Assembly: GCA_029262875.1 (NCBI GenBank)
Contig: JAJCYO010000023.1
Location: forward strand, 1-52,692
Direction: 5' to 3'
From: Flavobacteriales bacterium
GTDB taxonomy: Bacteria > Bacteroidota > Bacteroidia > Flavobacteriales_E > Vicingaceae
DNA: 52,692 nucleotides
A program made the translations under genes and the position numbers. Shown one piece after another: positions 5,490 through 11,722 of the stretch; position 1 is the stretch's first letter, and every line of letters starts with the position of its first letter. Below the pieces are notes generated by a model that worked only from the letters and a program-made list of their open reading frames with translations, was not told where the DNA came from and did no database searches.

Positions 5490-6512
5490 ATGTTTGGTAT
5501 TAACAGTGATCATATTAATTTACTTTCTAAACTTACATTTTCAAGAGTTGTTAATGCATTAAGGGTTAAATGGAGTTTTAATTATTCAAAATGGGTAAAA
5601 AAGCCAGTTTTAAATGCGGTACCAATTAGTATAACAATTGAACCCACAACAGCTTGTAACTTGGGTTGTCCAGAATGCCCAAGTGGATTAAAACAATTTA
5701 CCCGTCCAGAAGGAAACCTAAAACAAGATTTTTACAAAAAATTAATTGATCAGACCTATCAAAAATCCTATTACCTGAATTTTTACTTTCAAGGAGAGCC
5801 ATATATTAATCCTGATTTTTTGGAAATGGTTAGCTATGCAAATAATAAAAAAATGTACACGGCTACTTCTACCAATGCTCATTTCTTAAATGAGGAGAAT
5901 GCTAAAAAGACGATCAAAAGTGGGTTAAGCAGATTAACCATTTCTATTGATGGAACCACGCAAGAAACCTATGAAAGCTATCGTAAAAACGGAAGTTTAG
6001 ATAAAGTTATCGAAGGAACAAAAAACGTGATTAAGTGGAAACAAGAATTAAAGTCTAAAACGCCCTACATCATTTTTCAGTTTTTGGTAGTAAAACCAAA
6101 TGAACATCAAATAGAAGAGGCCAAACAATTAGCAAATGATTTGGGCGTAGATGAAATTCGTTTTAAAACGGCACAGTTGTACAATTTCAAACATGGAAAT
6201 GATTTGATGCCAAGTATAGATAAATATTCACGGTATAGAAAGAAAGCTGATGGTACTTATCGTTTAAAAAACAAAATGCTCAATGAGTGCTGGCGCATGT
6301 GGAGTTCCTGTGTTATTACTTGGGATGGAAAAGTTGTACCTTGTTGTTTTGATAAAGATGCCATTCACCAATTGGGAGAACTACAGCAAAAACCGTTAAA
6401 AGAAATTTGGACATCAGCTCCTTACAACAATTTTAGAAAAGCCCTATTAAATAACCGACAGGAAATTGACATTTGTCAAAACTGTACTGAAGGAACTAAG
6501 GTTTGGGAGTGA
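5490..6512 (+). CDS. Radical SAM / SPASM domain enzyme
   Basis: Radical S-adenosylmethionine enzyme of 340 residues. The [4Fe-4S] motif CxxxCxxC is at Cys56, Cys60 and Cys63 (TACNLGCPECP), followed by the TIM-barrel elements FQGEPY (the GGEP-like SAM motif) and SISIDG-like TISIDG. The C-terminal region, from about residue 265, carries further cysteines in the patterns CWRMWSSC, VPCCF and ICQNC, typical of a SPASM auxiliary-cluster domain. SPASM enzymes modify peptides, sugars or cofactors; the substrate here cannot be read from the sequence, and no precursor peptide or partner enzyme lies adjacent. There is no other methionine in the first 70 residues, so the start at 5490 is the only reasonable one. 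The gene is convergent with a small membrane-protein gene, four bases away. Confidence 0.85.
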   Translation: MFGINSDHINLLSKLTFSRVVNALRVKWSFNYSKWVKKPVLNAVPISITIEPTTACNLGCPECPSGLKQFTRPEGNLKQDFYKKLIDQTYQKSYYLNFYFQGEPYINPDFLEMVSYANNKKMYTATSTNAHFLNEENAKKTIKSGLSRLTISIDGTTQETYESYRKNGSLDKVIEGTKNVIKWKQELKSKTPYIIFQFLVVKPNEHQIEEAKQLANDLGVDEIRFKTAQLYNFKHGNDLMPSIDKYSRYRKKADGTYRLKNKMLNECWRMWSSCVITWDGKVVPCCFDKDAIHQLGELQQKPLKEIWTSAPYNNFRKALLNNRQEIDICQNCTEGTKVWE

Positions 6513-6516
6513 TTTT

Positions 6517-6900
6517 TTATTTATTGAACAGCGCTTTGATTTCGGGTTTACTCAGTTCAATAATGGTAAATGCAGCCAGTAATATTCCAAGAATACCTGT
6601 AATTCCATTAATCCCTGCAGCAACGATAATAAAGTTATAATTGCTGATCTCTTTTAAGTGTTTAGAAGCCATCAAAGCCAATATGCCTATAGCAATTGAG
6701 AATATAAACCCAACCATTCCGATGATTAAAAATATGTGGCCAGGGTTAAATGGGAGGGGATCTGAAGGATTCGAAAATTCTGCCATATTTCCCATAAACA
6801 CTCCAAAGACAGCATAAACAATGAAAATAACAGAAAAACATAAGGTCAAAATTCCCTTTATTAAAAAGAGTATTCTAAATGTATTGAGGTTGTTAGACAT
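6517..6900 (-). CDS. Small four-helix membrane protein, unknown function
   Basis: A 127-residue protein with four predicted membrane segments: about residues 10-32, 52-74, 88-108 and a final one near 96-116 that overlaps or follows closely. A polar loop rich in Asn, Pro and Asp lies after the first helix. The helix spacing and the SKHLKEISNY linker resemble short Bacteroidota membrane proteins annotated only as hypothetical. It has no catalytic motif. The downstream beta-lactamase-like gene is on the same strand 40 bases upstream in transcription order, so it could be co-transcribed with it as the distal gene. I do not recognise a named family. Confidence 0.75.
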   Translation of the reverse strand: MSNNLNTFRILFLIKGILTLCFSVIFIVYAVFGVFMGNMAEFSNPSDPLPFNPGHIFLIIGMVGFIFSIAIGILALMASKHLKEISNYNFIIVAAGINGITGILGILLAAFTIIELSKPEIKALFNK

Positions 6901-6939
6901 TGTTCAAATTTAGTTTAACACCTATAAAGTTAAGGTATT

Positions 6940-7692
6940 TTATTCTATAGAAAATAGTTTAATCGTATAATCTAATAAATCTGTATTTCCAGGTTTTCCA
7001 TGCCCTGGAACCACCCATTTTAGATTGGGGTATTCCGCTTTTATTTTTGTTACAGTATTGGACCATTCATCAACATTGGCATCTCCTAAATAACCTTTAC
7101 TTGCATCAATTTTTTTAATTAAACATCCACCAAATAGTACATTTTCAGTTGCTACATAAACAACAACATTATCTTTTGTATGCCCTTCTCCAAAATGGGT
7201 CACATTTACATAATCATCGCCAATAGGAATTACAAACTCATTGTCAAAACCCAAAAGAGGAACTTCAAGGCTATCCGTCTCAGCCAATTGGATGGTTAAA
7301 TTATTTCCATAACTCTTAATTCCTTTATCGTTAAAAGCTTTAAGTCCTCCTAAGCAGTCGTTATGAAAATGGGTAGCTAATACTCCTATAACGTTACATT
7401 CTAATTCTTTTTCTATCCAATTTATCAACTCTATACTTACGCTATCTGTAGTTGGTGTATCAAAAATAAGGGCTTCGTTGTTATGAATATATATCATTCC
7501 ATTACAGCCAACTTTTCCATACTCGGGGAGAAAAAGATAAGAAGTGTGTACAAATACATTGTCAGTTAATTCTTCAATTTTTAAATTAGAGGTTTCGTAA
7601 TTGGCTGCACTTTCTGCGTCCTCCTTACATGAAAATAGCACCAAAATAAGTAGTGAAGCCAGTAAAAACTTAATGTGTTTGAATAATAACAT
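6940..7692 (-). CDS. Subclass B1 metallo-beta-lactamase, CcrA/CfiA-like, lipoprotein
   Basis: Zinc hydrolase predicted to open beta-lactam rings, including carbapenems. All zinc ligands of subclass B1 are present: His108-x-His110-x-Asp112 (THFHNDCLGG), His171 (GEGHTKDN), Cys190 (LFGGCLIK) and His231 (VPGHGKPG). Lys193, which binds the substrate carboxylate in B1 enzymes, is also there. Cys113 after the Asp matches CcrA of Bacteroides fragilis, where most other B1 enzymes have Arg, Lys or Ser. The segments CNGMI, TPTTD and TENVLFGGC also resemble CcrA. The usual LGN motif (Asn233 in standard numbering) is replaced by GYL, and the loop is about one residue shorter. A lipobox ends at Cys22 (LFSC), so the enzyme should be membrane-anchored, as NDM-1 is. 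Length is 250 residues, normal for the family. It is divergent from the TetR gene, 125 bases away. Family assignment is strong; activity spectrum is inferred. Confidence 0.9.
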   Translation of the reverse strand: MLLFKHIKFLLASLLILVLFSCKEDAESAANYETSNLKIEELTDNVFVHTSYLFLPEYGKVGCNGMIYIHNNEALIFDTPTTDSVSIELINWIEKELECNVIGVLATHFHNDCLGGLKAFNDKGIKSYGNNLTIQLAETDSLEVPLLGFDNEFVIPIGDDYVNVTHFGEGHTKDNVVVYVATENVLFGGCLIKKIDASKGYLGDANVDEWSNTVTKIKAEYPNLKWVVPGHGKPGNTDLLDYTIKLFSIE

Positions 7693-7699
7693 AAGTAAT

Positions 7700-7707
7700 C
7701 AAAATTA
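7700..7707 (-). promoter_or_regulatory. TAnnTTTG promoter -7 box for the metallo-beta-lactamase gene
   Basis: On the minus strand this reads TAATTTTG, an exact match to TAnnTTTG, and ends seven bases before the ATG at 7692. No good -33 TTG lies at the expected distance. Confidence 0.45.
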
Positions 7708-7793
7708 CAATAACAATTTCATTTCGTTACTTCTTAAAGCACATCACTGATTTAATTTTTTTCATAAAAAATTAGTAGTTCAATAAAAAATTC

Positions 7794-7816
7794 TAAATTT
7801 GTACCGTTCGGTCTAA
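7794..7816 (+). promoter_or_regulatory. Promoter -7 box overlapping a TetR-type operator
   Basis: TAAATTTG (7794-7801) matches the Bacteroidota -7 box. It runs directly into the interrupted palindrome ACCG-TT-CGGT (7803-7812). The right half continues as CGGTCTA, the half-site known for NemR/AcuR-like TetR repressors (TAGACCG..CGGTCTA); the left half is degenerate beyond ACCG. The site spans the likely transcription start of the TetR gene, so repressor binding should block its own operon. Operator identity is inferred from pattern and position. Confidence 0.6.
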
Positions 7817-7817
7817 A

Positions 7818-8393
7818 ATGAAACACTCTAGAGAAGACATAATAGAAGGAGGAATACAATTGTTTAGTATTCATGGATACCAAGGAACTGGAGTCCAACA
7901 AATACTAAAATCATTGGATATTCCTAAAGGATCTTTTTACAATTATTTTAAAAGTAAAGAAGATTTTGCGATAGAGGCGGTTGAGCTGTATGGCGGAGAA
8001 GGGATGAAAAAGCATAAAATAGCATTGACAAATAAATCATTAGCACCATTGGCTCGGATCATAAAGAGAATGGAAAGTACACAAAAACTTTATGTCTCTG
8101 AATCGTTTGAGAAGAGCTGTTTATTGGATGTGTTAGCGATAGAGATAAGTGGAAGTAATAAGAAGGTGGCAAAAATTGTTGACGAAATATTCGTAAAGAG
8201 AAAAGAAATTTATGCAGCTTGCATAAAAGAAGGACAAGAATTGGGTGAGATAAGAAAGGATGAAAGTGCTGATGATTTAGCTGAATTTTTATTGACAGGA
8301 TATTCAGGAGCACAATTAAAAGCAAAAACAGAAAAAAGTGTGCGGCCGATGAAAGTATTTATGAATCAATACATCAACTATATAAAAGTATAA
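7818..8393 (+). CDS. TetR/AcrR family transcriptional regulator
   Basis: A 191-residue repressor. The N-terminal helix-turn-helix domain (residues 1-55) has the TetR signature: I..GIQLFSIHGYQGTG, then VQQILKSLDIPKGSFYNYF and the KSKEDF cap. The C-terminal ligand-binding half is helical and contains one conserved-looking Cys (EKSCLLDVLAIE) of the kind seen in NemR/AcuR-related regulators. The start is fixed by the promoter and palindrome immediately upstream. It is followed by two exported-protein genes on the same strand, 61 and 30 bases apart, so it probably controls them as one operon. It faces the beta-lactamase gene divergently. The inducer is unknown; electrophiles or aldehydes would be the guess by analogy with NemR/AcuR, and that is inference only. 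Confidence 0.9.
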   Translation: MKHSREDIIEGGIQLFSIHGYQGTGVQQILKSLDIPKGSFYNYFKSKEDFAIEAVELYGGEGMKKHKIALTNKSLAPLARIIKRMESTQKLYVSESFEKSCLLDVLAIEISGSNKKVAKIVDEIFVKRKEIYAACIKEGQELGEIRKDESADDLAEFLLTGYSGAQLKAKTEKSVRPMKVFMNQYINYIKV

Positions 8394-8454
8394 TTTTTTT
8401 TAAATCACAAAATAAGTAAACCAGTCTAATTAGTAATAATTTAAAACAAACAAT

Positions 8455-9270
8455 ATGAAAAAAAATGGAATAATTGTAGCGCTAATGTTAGGAACATTTG
8501 GCCTATCAGCAACAGGGTGCTCAAACAACAATGCAAGCAATGTTGTTGAAGAAACCTCTACTGAAATAGTAGCGGAAGAAGTAACCGCAGTAACTGCAGT
8601 GCCTGTAGAAGAGGTTAAAGAAGTAATGTTTAAAAAAGGCAAATTAATAGAAGTTGCGTTTTTATCTGTAAAAGAAGGAATGGGAAAACAGCTTAAAGAA
8701 GATTACTTTCCTCAAGTAATGCCTATGGTAACAGAATATGGTGGGAAACCATTGATGAAAATAGGTATTAAAAACAACTACTCTAAAAAAATTAAAGCAC
8801 AAATGGTGGTATTTTTTGAGTGGCCAAGTGCGGCAAAAAAGGAAGCTTTTGATAAAGATCCAAGGTTCTTAAAAGTAAAAAAAATACGAGACGCAGCCTT
8901 GAGTTCTTTAAAACTGAGCTATTTTGAAGTAGAAAAAGATTCTCCAGTTAAATTGGATGAGAATAAGTTTTACGAAGTATATGGTATGTCCATGAACAAA
9001 GAAAAAGGGCACCTTATGCAAACCTATTTTGAAAAAGCAGGACCAATTGTGATGAATGACTACAATGTTGAATTTGCATTGTCGTTAAATCCAGTCAAAG
9101 TAGCTGGAGGAGACCATTATGTTCCTCAAACTTTTGGATTAGCCATTTGGCCTTCTGCTGAGTCCAATGCTAAATTTTTTGGATCAAAAGAATACAAAAA
9201 AATCAAACATTATAAAGAAGAAGCATTGGAAAGAATTGATGTATGGCAAGGAGCCGTAATGCTTAAATAA
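8455..9270 (+). CDS. Lipoprotein with two tandem DUF1330-like domains
   Basis: Exported lipoprotein of 271 residues. The signal sequence ends in a lipobox at Cys22 (SATGC), and a Val/Glu/Thr-rich linker runs to about residue 60. The rest is two copies of a domain of about 100 residues. Copy one contains VMPMVTEYGGKPLMKIG and FFEWPSAAKKEAFDKDPRF; copy two contains AIWPSAESNAKFFGSKEYKK at the corresponding position. The WPS-A...F motif followed by a short helix resembles DUF1330 and other dimeric alpha-beta-barrel proteins, and a tandem pair would form such a barrel within one chain. No catalytic residue is evident. It is the second gene of the TetR operon. The family name is a pattern-based guess with moderate confidence. 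Confidence 0.7.
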   Translation: MKKNGIIVALMLGTFGLSATGCSNNNASNVVEETSTEIVAEEVTAVTAVPVEEVKEVMFKKGKLIEVAFLSVKEGMGKQLKEDYFPQVMPMVTEYGGKPLMKIGIKNNYSKKIKAQMVVFFEWPSAAKKEAFDKDPRFLKVKKIRDAALSSLKLSYFEVEKDSPVKLDENKFYEVYGMSMNKEKGHLMQTYFEKAGPIVMNDYNVEFALSLNPVKVAGGDHYVPQTFGLAIWPSAESNAKFFGSKEYKKIKHYKEEALERIDVWQGAVMLK

Positions 9271-9300
9271 AATATAAGTTAAACCATAAATAAAATAAAA

Positions 9301-9876
9301 ATGTTAAAAACACTAAATATAACAATCATGTTACTATTCGTTTCCCTATGTTCTTTTGCAAAAAAAGATAAACCGAATACCATCATTGCAAAAGAAATAG
9401 TCATTAATGCAGACATTAAAAAAGCTTGGCAAGTGTTGGGCCCCGAGTTTGCCAATGCAGATAGATGGTCGACAGTAATTAAGCATTCTCAAGCCAATGA
9501 CAGCAAAAGCTTTAACGGATCAACCTGTACAGAAAGAGGATGTGATGTTTCTGGGTTAGGCAAAATAAAAGAGAAAATTTTGGAATATTCTGATAGCGAA
9601 TATGTGCTCTCCTATCAGGTATATGAAGGGATGCCTAAAATGGTGAAATACATGTCTAATTACTGGAAGTTGACACCTTCTGCTGATGGTAAAGTCAAAT
9701 TAGAAATGAAAATGGAAATGAAAACAGGTGGACTGATGGGGTCAATGATGAAGGGAATGATGAAAAAGAAAATGTCTAAAATGGCAGATCAGGTCATAGA
9801 AGAATTTAAATATTATGTAGAGAAAGGAAAGCCTCATCCACGAAAAATAAAAGCGACCAAAAAACAAAAAAACTGA
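9301..9876 (+). CDS. Exported SRPBCC (START/polyketide-cyclase-like) protein
   Basis: A 191-residue protein with a signal peptide ending near residue 20 (LCSFA), followed by an SRPBCC fold. It opens with the strand IIAKEIVINADIKKAWQVL and the WSTVIKH segment typical of Polyketide_cyc2 proteins. A middle GLGKIKEKILEYSDSEYVLSY segment follows, then a long C-terminal helix rich in Met and Lys (GSMMKGMMKKKMSK). Such proteins bind lipids or small hydrophobic ligands in a deep cavity. It is the last gene of the TetR operon and is followed by a clear rho-independent terminator. The ligand is unknown. The Met/Lys-rich helix is unusual and might touch membrane. Confidence 0.75.
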   Translation: MLKTLNITIMLLFVSLCSFAKKDKPNTIIAKEIVINADIKKAWQVLGPEFANADRWSTVIKHSQANDSKSFNGSTCTERGCDVSGLGKIKEKILEYSDSEYVLSYQVYEGMPKMVKYMSNYWKLTPSADGKVKLEMKMEMKTGGLMGSMMKGMMKKKMSKMADQVIEEFKYYVEKGKPHPRKIKATKKQKN

Positions 9877-9905
9877 AGTTAGTTAATAGTAGAAGTGTGT
9901 TGGTT

Positions 9906-9938
9906 AAGCCCAAGGATAACTTTATTCTTGGGCTTTTT
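9906..9938 (+). terminator. Rho-independent terminator of the TetR operon
   Basis: A 9-bp stem AAGCCCAAG (9906-9914) pairs with CTTGGGCTT (9927-9935) across a 12-base loop and runs into TTTT. It lies 30 bases after the SRPBCC stop codon. Confidence 0.85.
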
Positions 9939-10023
9939 GATATAACCAGAATTGATAGTTGGCAAGACTACGAAGAGGATAAAGAGTTTAGGTTTAATGT
10001 CTTAAATATAGGGTGTTAAATTC

Positions 10024-10335
10024 CTATTCAAATTCAACCTTTAATCCTCCAAATTTTCTTGCAAAATAATTGTAAAAAATTGCTTCGATGAGACCAAGTA
10101 CAAAACCAATTACGCCAAATATAACTGGCATTCCGATTAATGCTCCGAACGCAAGAATAGTTCCATAACTTAACCCAGGTGTTTCAGCTGAAAAGATTAA
10201 ATCACTACTCACAAGAATATCTACTGTTAATCCACCAAAAGAATATATAATTCCTAAAAATAACCCGAAGAGAGCACCCAAAACAGCTTGAAGTTTTGCC
10301 AAGGAAAAAACACTGATCTTATTTATCTTTCTCAT
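10024..10335 (-). CDS. Small conserved membrane protein, unknown function
   Basis: A 103-residue protein with two long hydrophobic stretches (about residues 15-37 and 58-88, the second probably a re-entrant pair). It begins with a basic KINKISVFSLAKLQ segment and ends in ARKFGGLKVEFE. The layout, a helix after an [IV]xxxSLAK motif and a C-terminal GG-[LI]-x-[VL]-E strand, recurs in short membrane proteins of many bacteria and archaea that have no known function. It is transcribed divergently from tyrS, with 106 bases between them, and has its own TAnnTTTG box. No operon partner is seen. Confidence 0.7.
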   Translation of the reverse strand: MRKINKISVFSLAKLQAVLGALFGLFLGIIYSFGGLTVDILVSSDLIFSAETPGLSYGTILAFGALIGMPVIFGVIGFVLGLIEAIFYNYFARKFGGLKVEFE

Positions 10336-10376
10336 GATCTGTTCTTTTTATTCATTACATATAATTGAGCCTATCT

Positions 10377-10384
10377 CAAATATA
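10377..10384 (-). promoter_or_regulatory. TAnnTTTG -7 box for the small membrane-protein gene
   Basis: The minus strand reads TATATTTG, an exact consensus match, about 40 bases before the ATG at 10335. No convincing -33 element is seen. Confidence 0.4.
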
Positions 10385-10415
10385 CCAATTACCAAATTAC
10401 TTCCCACATTATTAC

Positions 10416-10423
10416 TACTTTTG
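10416..10423 (+). promoter_or_regulatory. TAnnTTTG -7 box for tyrS
   Basis: TACTTTTG matches the consensus and lies 18 bases before the tyrS ATG at 10442. It would give a leader of roughly 10-12 bases, so no T-box or other leader regulator fits there. Confidence 0.45.
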
Positions 10424-10441
10424 TTTACCTAAAACAAAGAA

Positions 10442-11722
10442 ATGAACTTTATAGAAGAAATCCGTTGGAGGGGCATGATACATGATATGATGCCGGGAAC
10501 AGAAGAGCAATTTGCTAAGGAACTGACAGCAGCATATATTGGTTTTGATCCTACAGGAGATTCGCTACACATTGGTAGTTTAGTGCAAATAATGATATTA
10601 GTTCATTTACAAAATGCTGGACATAAACCTTATGCATTGGTAGGGGGAGCAACGGGTATGGTAGGAGATCCTTCTGGAAAATCTGCTGAACGCAATTTGT
10701 TGGATGAGGAAACATTAAACCATAATGTGACGTGCATCAAAAAACAATTGGAACAATTTTTAGATTTTGATTGTGGTGAAAATTCAGCTGAAATGGTAAA
10801 CAACTACGACTGGTTTAAGGAATTTAATTTCTTAGATTTTATTCGTGATGTTGGAAAGCACATTCCAGTTAATTATATGATGGCGAAAGATTCTGTAAAA
10901 TCTCGTTTAGAAACGGGGATGTCTTTTACAGAGTTTTCTTACCAGTTGGTCCAAGGCTACGATTTCTACTGGTTGAACCAAAACAAAAATTGTAAAGTTC
11001 AGTTGGGTGGTTCAGATCAATGGGGAAACATTGTTACTGGAACAGAGTTGATTAGAAGAAAAGGCGGAGGAGAAGCTTTTGCTTGTACTACTCCATTAAT
11101 TAAAAAAGCCGATGGGAGCAAATTTGGCAAAACAGAAGGTGGGAATATATGGTTGGATAAGACCAAAACATCTCCCTATAAATTTTACCAATATTGGATC
11201 AATGCTTCAGATGAAGATGCAGCCAATTACATCAGAATTTTCACGTTAAAGGAAAAAGAAGAAATAGAAGCATTAGAAGCTGAGCATAAAAAAGCACCTC
11301 ACCTAAGAATCTTACAACGTCAATTAGCAATGGACATTACCATTCGCGTTCATTCTAAAGAAGATTATGATGCCGCAATAAATGCTTCAGAAGTGTTGTT
11401 TAAAAAAGGAGCAGAAGCCGTTGAAGCATTAAAAAATTTACCAGAAAACATTTTTAATGATGTGTTTGAAGGTGTCCCTCAGTCTGAAATAGCATTATCA
11501 GAAATTGAAAATGGTCTAAACATTGTAGATGCCTTAGCAACAAAGACAAATTTTTTAAGTTCTAATGGGGAAGCCAGAAGAGCTTTAAAAGAAAACTCGA
11601 TTAGTGTGAATAAAGATAAAGTAGGAGAAGATAAAGTGCTTGATAAAGACGATTTGATTAACGGTAAGTACATTTTATTACAACGAGGAAAGAAAAATAA
11701 CTTTTTGGTAAAAGCGATATAG
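10442..11722 (+). CDS. tyrS: Tyrosine--tRNA ligase
   Basis: Class I aminoacyl-tRNA synthetase that charges tRNA-Tyr. The N-terminal Rossmann fold shows [15 protein letters not shown], whose HIGS is the HIGH signature. The tyrosine-binding region includes [13 protein letters not shown] and [11 protein letters not shown]. The KMSKS loop appears as KFGKT ([10 protein letters not shown]), the usual form in bacterial TyrRS. The C-terminal 70 residues form an S4 RNA-binding domain ([13 protein letters not shown]...[11 protein letters not shown]). Length is 426 residues, normal. The stop codon overlaps the GTG start of the next gene by one base (TAGTG), so the downstream exported protein is probably translationally coupled. 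Confidence 0.98.

Follow-up and report, generated by a model that had tools for sequence, protein, structure and literature searches.

Does the metallo-beta-lactamase (MBL) gene that lies beside a TetR-family regulator in a Flavobacteriales genome of the family Vicingaceae (contig JAJCYO010000023.1 of assembly GCA_029262875.1) encode a relative of CcrA from Bacteroides, and is it governed by the regulator at its side? We use "the window" for the whole stretch of DNA analysed, 52,692 nucleotides in length, and "the window MBL" for the enzyme in question (Table 1). An initial annotation had described a CcrA-like lipoprotein of subclass B1 and a possible resistance reservoir, with regulation by the TetR protein proposed from position. 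Judged by its sequence, the window MBL is a genuine B1 enzyme and an ordinary addition to the already known MYO-1/CIM/ECV-1 group of Bacteroidota; we call it ordinary because that group has already been tested in related Bacteroidota, and because the TetR protein is most likely not its controller.

Table 1. Features of the MBL locus and its borders, in window coordinates.
Feature	Positions	Strand	Basis
Radical SAM (rSAM)/SPASM protein, conserved border of the variable MBL site	5490..6512	+	profile matches, synteny
Subclass B1 metallo-beta-lactamase, predicted lipoprotein (Cys22), MYO-1/ECV-1/CIM-2-type clade	6940..7692	-	NCBIfam, PDB matches, zinc ligands, tree
Probable MBL -7 box TAATTTTG, 7 bp before ATG	7700..7707	-	sequence match only
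Probable TetR operon -7 box TAAATTTG	7794..7801	+	sequence match
Imperfect palindrome tgtACCGttCGGTcta resembling a TetR operator, abutting the TetR -7 box	7801..7816	+	kept in G025
TetR-family regulator, 191 aa, AcuR-like, TetR_C_13	7818..8393	+	profile matches
DUF1330-domain lipoprotein, TetR operon gene 2	8455..9270	+	PF07045; orthologue in G025 TetR cluster
Polyketide_cyc2/SRPBCC-type secreted protein, TetR operon gene 3	9301..9876	+	PF10604; orthologue in G025 TetR cluster
Tyrosyl-tRNA synthetase (tyrS; named from sequence), conserved border on the opposite side of the MBL site	10442..11722	+	synteny

Identity of the enzyme

The MBL gene is single and intact in the assembly, and its 250-residue product scores 253.8 bits against the NCBIfam equivalog model for subclass B1 (NF033088.2), the curated cut-off of which is 200 bits. 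In the alignment all six zinc ligands are found, as had been claimed at the outset (residue/BBL number: H108/116, H110/118, D112/120, H171/196, C190/221, and H231/263), and Cys113, K193, and Tyr201 occupy positions 121, 224, and 233. A maximum-likelihood tree was built from 55 rows, 51 of them B1 sequences and four of them non-B1 MBL-fold outgroups; besides the window MBL and these outgroups it holds CcrA, BcII, BlaB, IMP-1, VIM-1, NDM-1, the nearest PDB structures, and database relatives, and the CcrA, BcII, and BlaB sequences match their PDB chains in full. The branch splitting the 51 B1 rows from the four MBL-fold rows has support of 100/99. A profile search and a phylogeny had been suggested as checks of the initial annotation, and both place the window MBL among the true B1 enzymes, the phylogeny also setting it apart from non-lactamase MBL-fold proteins.

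Relation to CcrA

The close kinship with CcrA that had been proposed does not survive a finer comparison. Against the curated CcrA model the window MBL scores 179.4 bits, below the cut-off of 550. The best-scoring of the named B1 families listed are CHM, CIM, and BMHC, and each one's own cut-off is missed as well (279 bits against 475, 274 against 490, and 263 against 550, respectively). The nearest PDB sequences are 9c3d, 6t5l (MYO-1), 9gx9/9gx8 (CJO-1/CIM-2), and 6t5k (ECV-1), with CcrA well behind. A fold search with an AlphaFold2 model of moderate confidence (mean pLDDT 77.6, with the lowest confidence around L10) returned CJO-1, a CcrA-like MBL of Dyadobacter, CIM-2, MYO-1, and ECV-1, and then CcrA. 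Sequence identity is about 50% (48-50%) to MYO-1, CIM-2, CJO-1, and ECV-1, as opposed to 36.5% to CcrA, and in the tree the window MBL falls with those four enzymes in a 25-row clade with support of 97/88.

That the window MBL is nonetheless an enzyme of the CcrA branch is extremely unlikely. The idea draws on the Cys121 common to both proteins, on CcrA being the closest of the classical enzymes tried, and on the tree, in which CcrA's small group can be forced as sister to the whole MYO-1-type clade without rejection (p-AU 0.49). However, forcing the window MBL, its orthologue in the congener G025, and CcrA into one clade is rejected (p-AU 0.0003). The cysteine following HxHxD is indeed present but is no marker of CcrA, since 20 of the 24 distinct members of the MYO-1-type clade carry it, the other four having Ser. 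The annotation was also right that Asn233 is replaced and the loop shorter: L10 has one residue fewer than in NDM, CcrA, BcII, and BlaB. This gap is common to all 24 distinct clade members (17 with Tyr at position 233, seven with Asn) and absent from CcrA, BcII, and BlaB, and so points away from CcrA. Taken together, the identity of 36.5%, the missed cut-off, the L10 gap, and the AU test rule out membership in CcrA/CfiA. The broad group B1-3 of Bacteroidetes genes holds both MYO-1 and CcrA (PMC5637372), and the label "CcrA-like" is therefore true of the window MBL only in that broad sense.

The lipobox likewise stands as a feature, though its likeness to that of NDM-1 in particular does not; it is of a general Bacteroidota kind. 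The signal peptide, read from the sequence, ends in LFS before C22 (lipobox LFSC, residues 19-22), and by eye a lipobox Cys is seen in 17 of the 20 full-length members of the clade. The window MBL is probably lipidated on Cys22 and anchored in the envelope. In the G025 orthologue (L007:1492-2244) Ser replaces this Cys, so the two congeneric species seem to differ in whether the enzyme is anchored in the membrane.

Genomic site

The gene order in the window is DUF5686 (-), rSAM (+), a 127-aa ORF (-), MBL (-), TetR (+), DUF1330 (+), SRPBCC (+), a 103-aa ORF (-), and tyrS (+). In G025, an assembly that is 72% complete and in which the relevant stretch lies inside one contig, the MBL orthologue (68% identity) has rSAM and tyrS on its two sides as in the window, adjoining the latter, with no TetR gene. 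All 14 congeners have tyrS. The rSAM-tyrS gap is empty in G018 (76 bp) and filled by other genes in G017, G019, G022, G023, G024, and G027. This alternation of empty and differently occupied gaps (window 5490-10442; L069-L082) marks a variable insertion site, and the MBL gene is accessory cargo within it.

Orthologues of the window MBL occur in two of the 14 genomes of the genus. Another genome of the genus, G021, carries a different B1 gene that groups with BlaB (L010), and in G030, of the same family, the neighbour of an MBL relative is a protein of 713 aa that contains the serine Beta-lactamase domain PF00144 (L083:2530-5801). Among 72,556 plasmids no near relative of the window MBL was found at an identity of at least 60%, and composition gives no signal of foreign origin (G+C of 32.7% for the MBL gene, 33-35% for the TetR operon, and 35.1% for the window).

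The neighbouring TetR operon

A TetR gene with an operator-like site does lie next door, as first described; it does not face the MBL gene, the two being divergent, back to back, with a 125-bp gap between them. The protein scores 128 bits against the AcuR equivalog model, below the cut-off of 247, and is AcuR-like only. A limited search of the literature gave nothing usable on a NemR/AcuR-type operator. Probable promoters were located with the Bacteroidota -7 consensus TAnnTTTG. The palindrome sits at the start of TetR, 94 bp upstream of the probable MBL -7 box. Its core, ACCGNNCGGTCTA, is found at a single place in the genome, against about 0.45 occurrences expected by chance, so that it is position and conservation, not rarity, that support it.

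The arrangement in G025 is informative here. The TetR orthologue (87%) lies on a separate contig from the MBL orthologue, with no MBL gene adjacent, and the palindrome is kept upstream of it with one change (TGTACCATTCGGTCTA), with TATTTTTG at the position of the TetR -7 box; the region upstream of the MBL orthologue contains TAAATTTG and lacks the palindrome. The G025 cluster (L081:3920-8400) comprises TetR, AraC-type, 191-aa, DUF1330, SDR-type, and SRPBCC genes (AraC and SDR named from sequence), and is longer than that of the window, where TetR, DUF1330, and SRPBCC stand together without the AraC-type, 191-aa, and SDR-type genes. A search by the carbonic-anhydrase flank found no counterpart of the TetR operon's old site in the window genome. 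Beyond the genus, 41 other locus records of B1 genes (some of them repeated genes) were scanned with a home-made TetR profile that passed its positive control, and no TetR-like ORF was found beside the B1 gene within the flanks covered, most of them only about 1.5 kb long.

These observations bear directly on whether the TetR protein controls the divergently transcribed MBL gene from the gap that separates the two, for instance by a repression that an inducer would lift. Such control would fit the presence of an operator-like palindrome between the two genes, and divergent neighbours are often targets of TetR proteins. We nevertheless consider it very unlikely, with the operator abutting the -7 box of TetR rather than that of the MBL gene, the operator remaining with TetR in G025 where the pairing is absent, and no TetR gene beside the other B1 genes examined. 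The G025 arrangement and the scan of other B1 loci rule out a conserved TetR-MBL unit and give no support to the functional coupling that had been suggested. The simplest reading is that the TetR protein most likely represses its own operon, and the adjacency to the MBL gene is most likely a matter of chance. It is conceivable, and in our estimate extremely improbable, that in this lineage alone the TetR operon inserted itself between the MBL gene and tyrS and so gave the MBL gene a divergent control region in common with TetR; were this so, an inducer of TetR such as a reactive electrophile or acid would now also change MBL expression.

Proposed function

Very probably, the window MBL is an active, envelope-anchored, di-zinc B1 beta-lactamase of the MYO-1 type, expressed from its own promoter, outside TetR control, and carried as accessory cargo. 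In the mechanism that we infer, the protein would be exported and then lipidated on Cys22, with Zn1 held by His116, His118, and His196 and Zn2 by Asp120, Cys221, and His263, and a zinc-bound hydroxide would open the beta-lactam ring. Transcription would start from the promoter just before the ATG, independently of the neighbouring TetR protein, which would repress its own operon. MYO-1 and ECV-1 are carbapenemases; in laboratory E. coli they increase the MICs of ertapenem and meropenem by 8- to 16-fold (PMC7443720). By analogy, the window MBL probably hydrolyses penicillins and carbapenems, and its activity should be weaker on some cephalosporins because L10 is short and bears Tyr233.

On the other hand, some predicted Bacteroidetes B1-3 genes are Carba NP negative in E. 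coli (PMC5637372), which counts against activity of the window MBL and would suit a native job other than resistance, that of an MBL-fold hydrolase acting, for instance, on a cell-wall-derived or other lactone or amide substrate. A setting in muropeptide recycling is seen in G029, of the same family, where an MBL relative (~50%) lies between genes for the exo-muramidase NamZ and a GH3 (NagZ-like) protein (L084:5285-8411). With all B1 zinc ligands and Lys224 intact, however, with proven beta-lactamases among relatives at ~50% identity, and with the MBL-fold outgroups split off at 100/99, a non-resistance role for the window MBL appears very improbable.

Significance and comparison with known enzymes

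As a beta-lactamase of the MYO-1 type, the window MBL extends by one chromosomal-type member the reservoir of MYO-1-like B1 enzymes already known from Bacteroidota. One enzyme of this clade, MYO-1, has already reached a resistance plasmid. The window MBL leaves the reservoir picture as it was: of 395 genomes sampled from the phylum, 61 have a B1 gene that scores above the cut-off. The locus also serves as an example of synteny used to set aside a neighbouring regulator.

The traits stressed for the window MBL are all already described for MYO-1 or CIM-2/CJO-1. MYO-1 (Myroides; PDB 6t5l) is likewise a B1 enzyme, of the same clade and ~50% identical, and shares with it the lipobox, Cys69, Cys121, Tyr233, and an L10 short by one, the last four of these having been described for MYO-1 (PMC7443720). 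MYO-1, however, is borne on a multidrug-resistance plasmid, whereas the window gene lies between an rSAM gene and tyrS on a contig in which no plasmid sign was seen. CIM-2 and CJO-1 (Chryseobacterium; PDB 9gx8, 9gx9), also ~50% identical, have the lipobox, the Tyr in L10 (Tyr233), and an L10 one residue shorter than that of NDM-1, and their membrane anchoring has been shown (PMC12326980); they differ in having Ser121 where the window MBL has Cys121. ECV-1 (Echinicola vietnamensis; PDB 6t5k) is 48% identical, with Cys121 and the short L10, and has Asn233 in place of Tyr233. CcrA/CfiA (Bacteroides fragilis; PDB 1kr3) has in common with the window MBL the B1 fold, the zinc ligands, and Cys121, but stands apart at 36.5% identity, with a full-length L10 carrying Asn233, on another branch of the tree.
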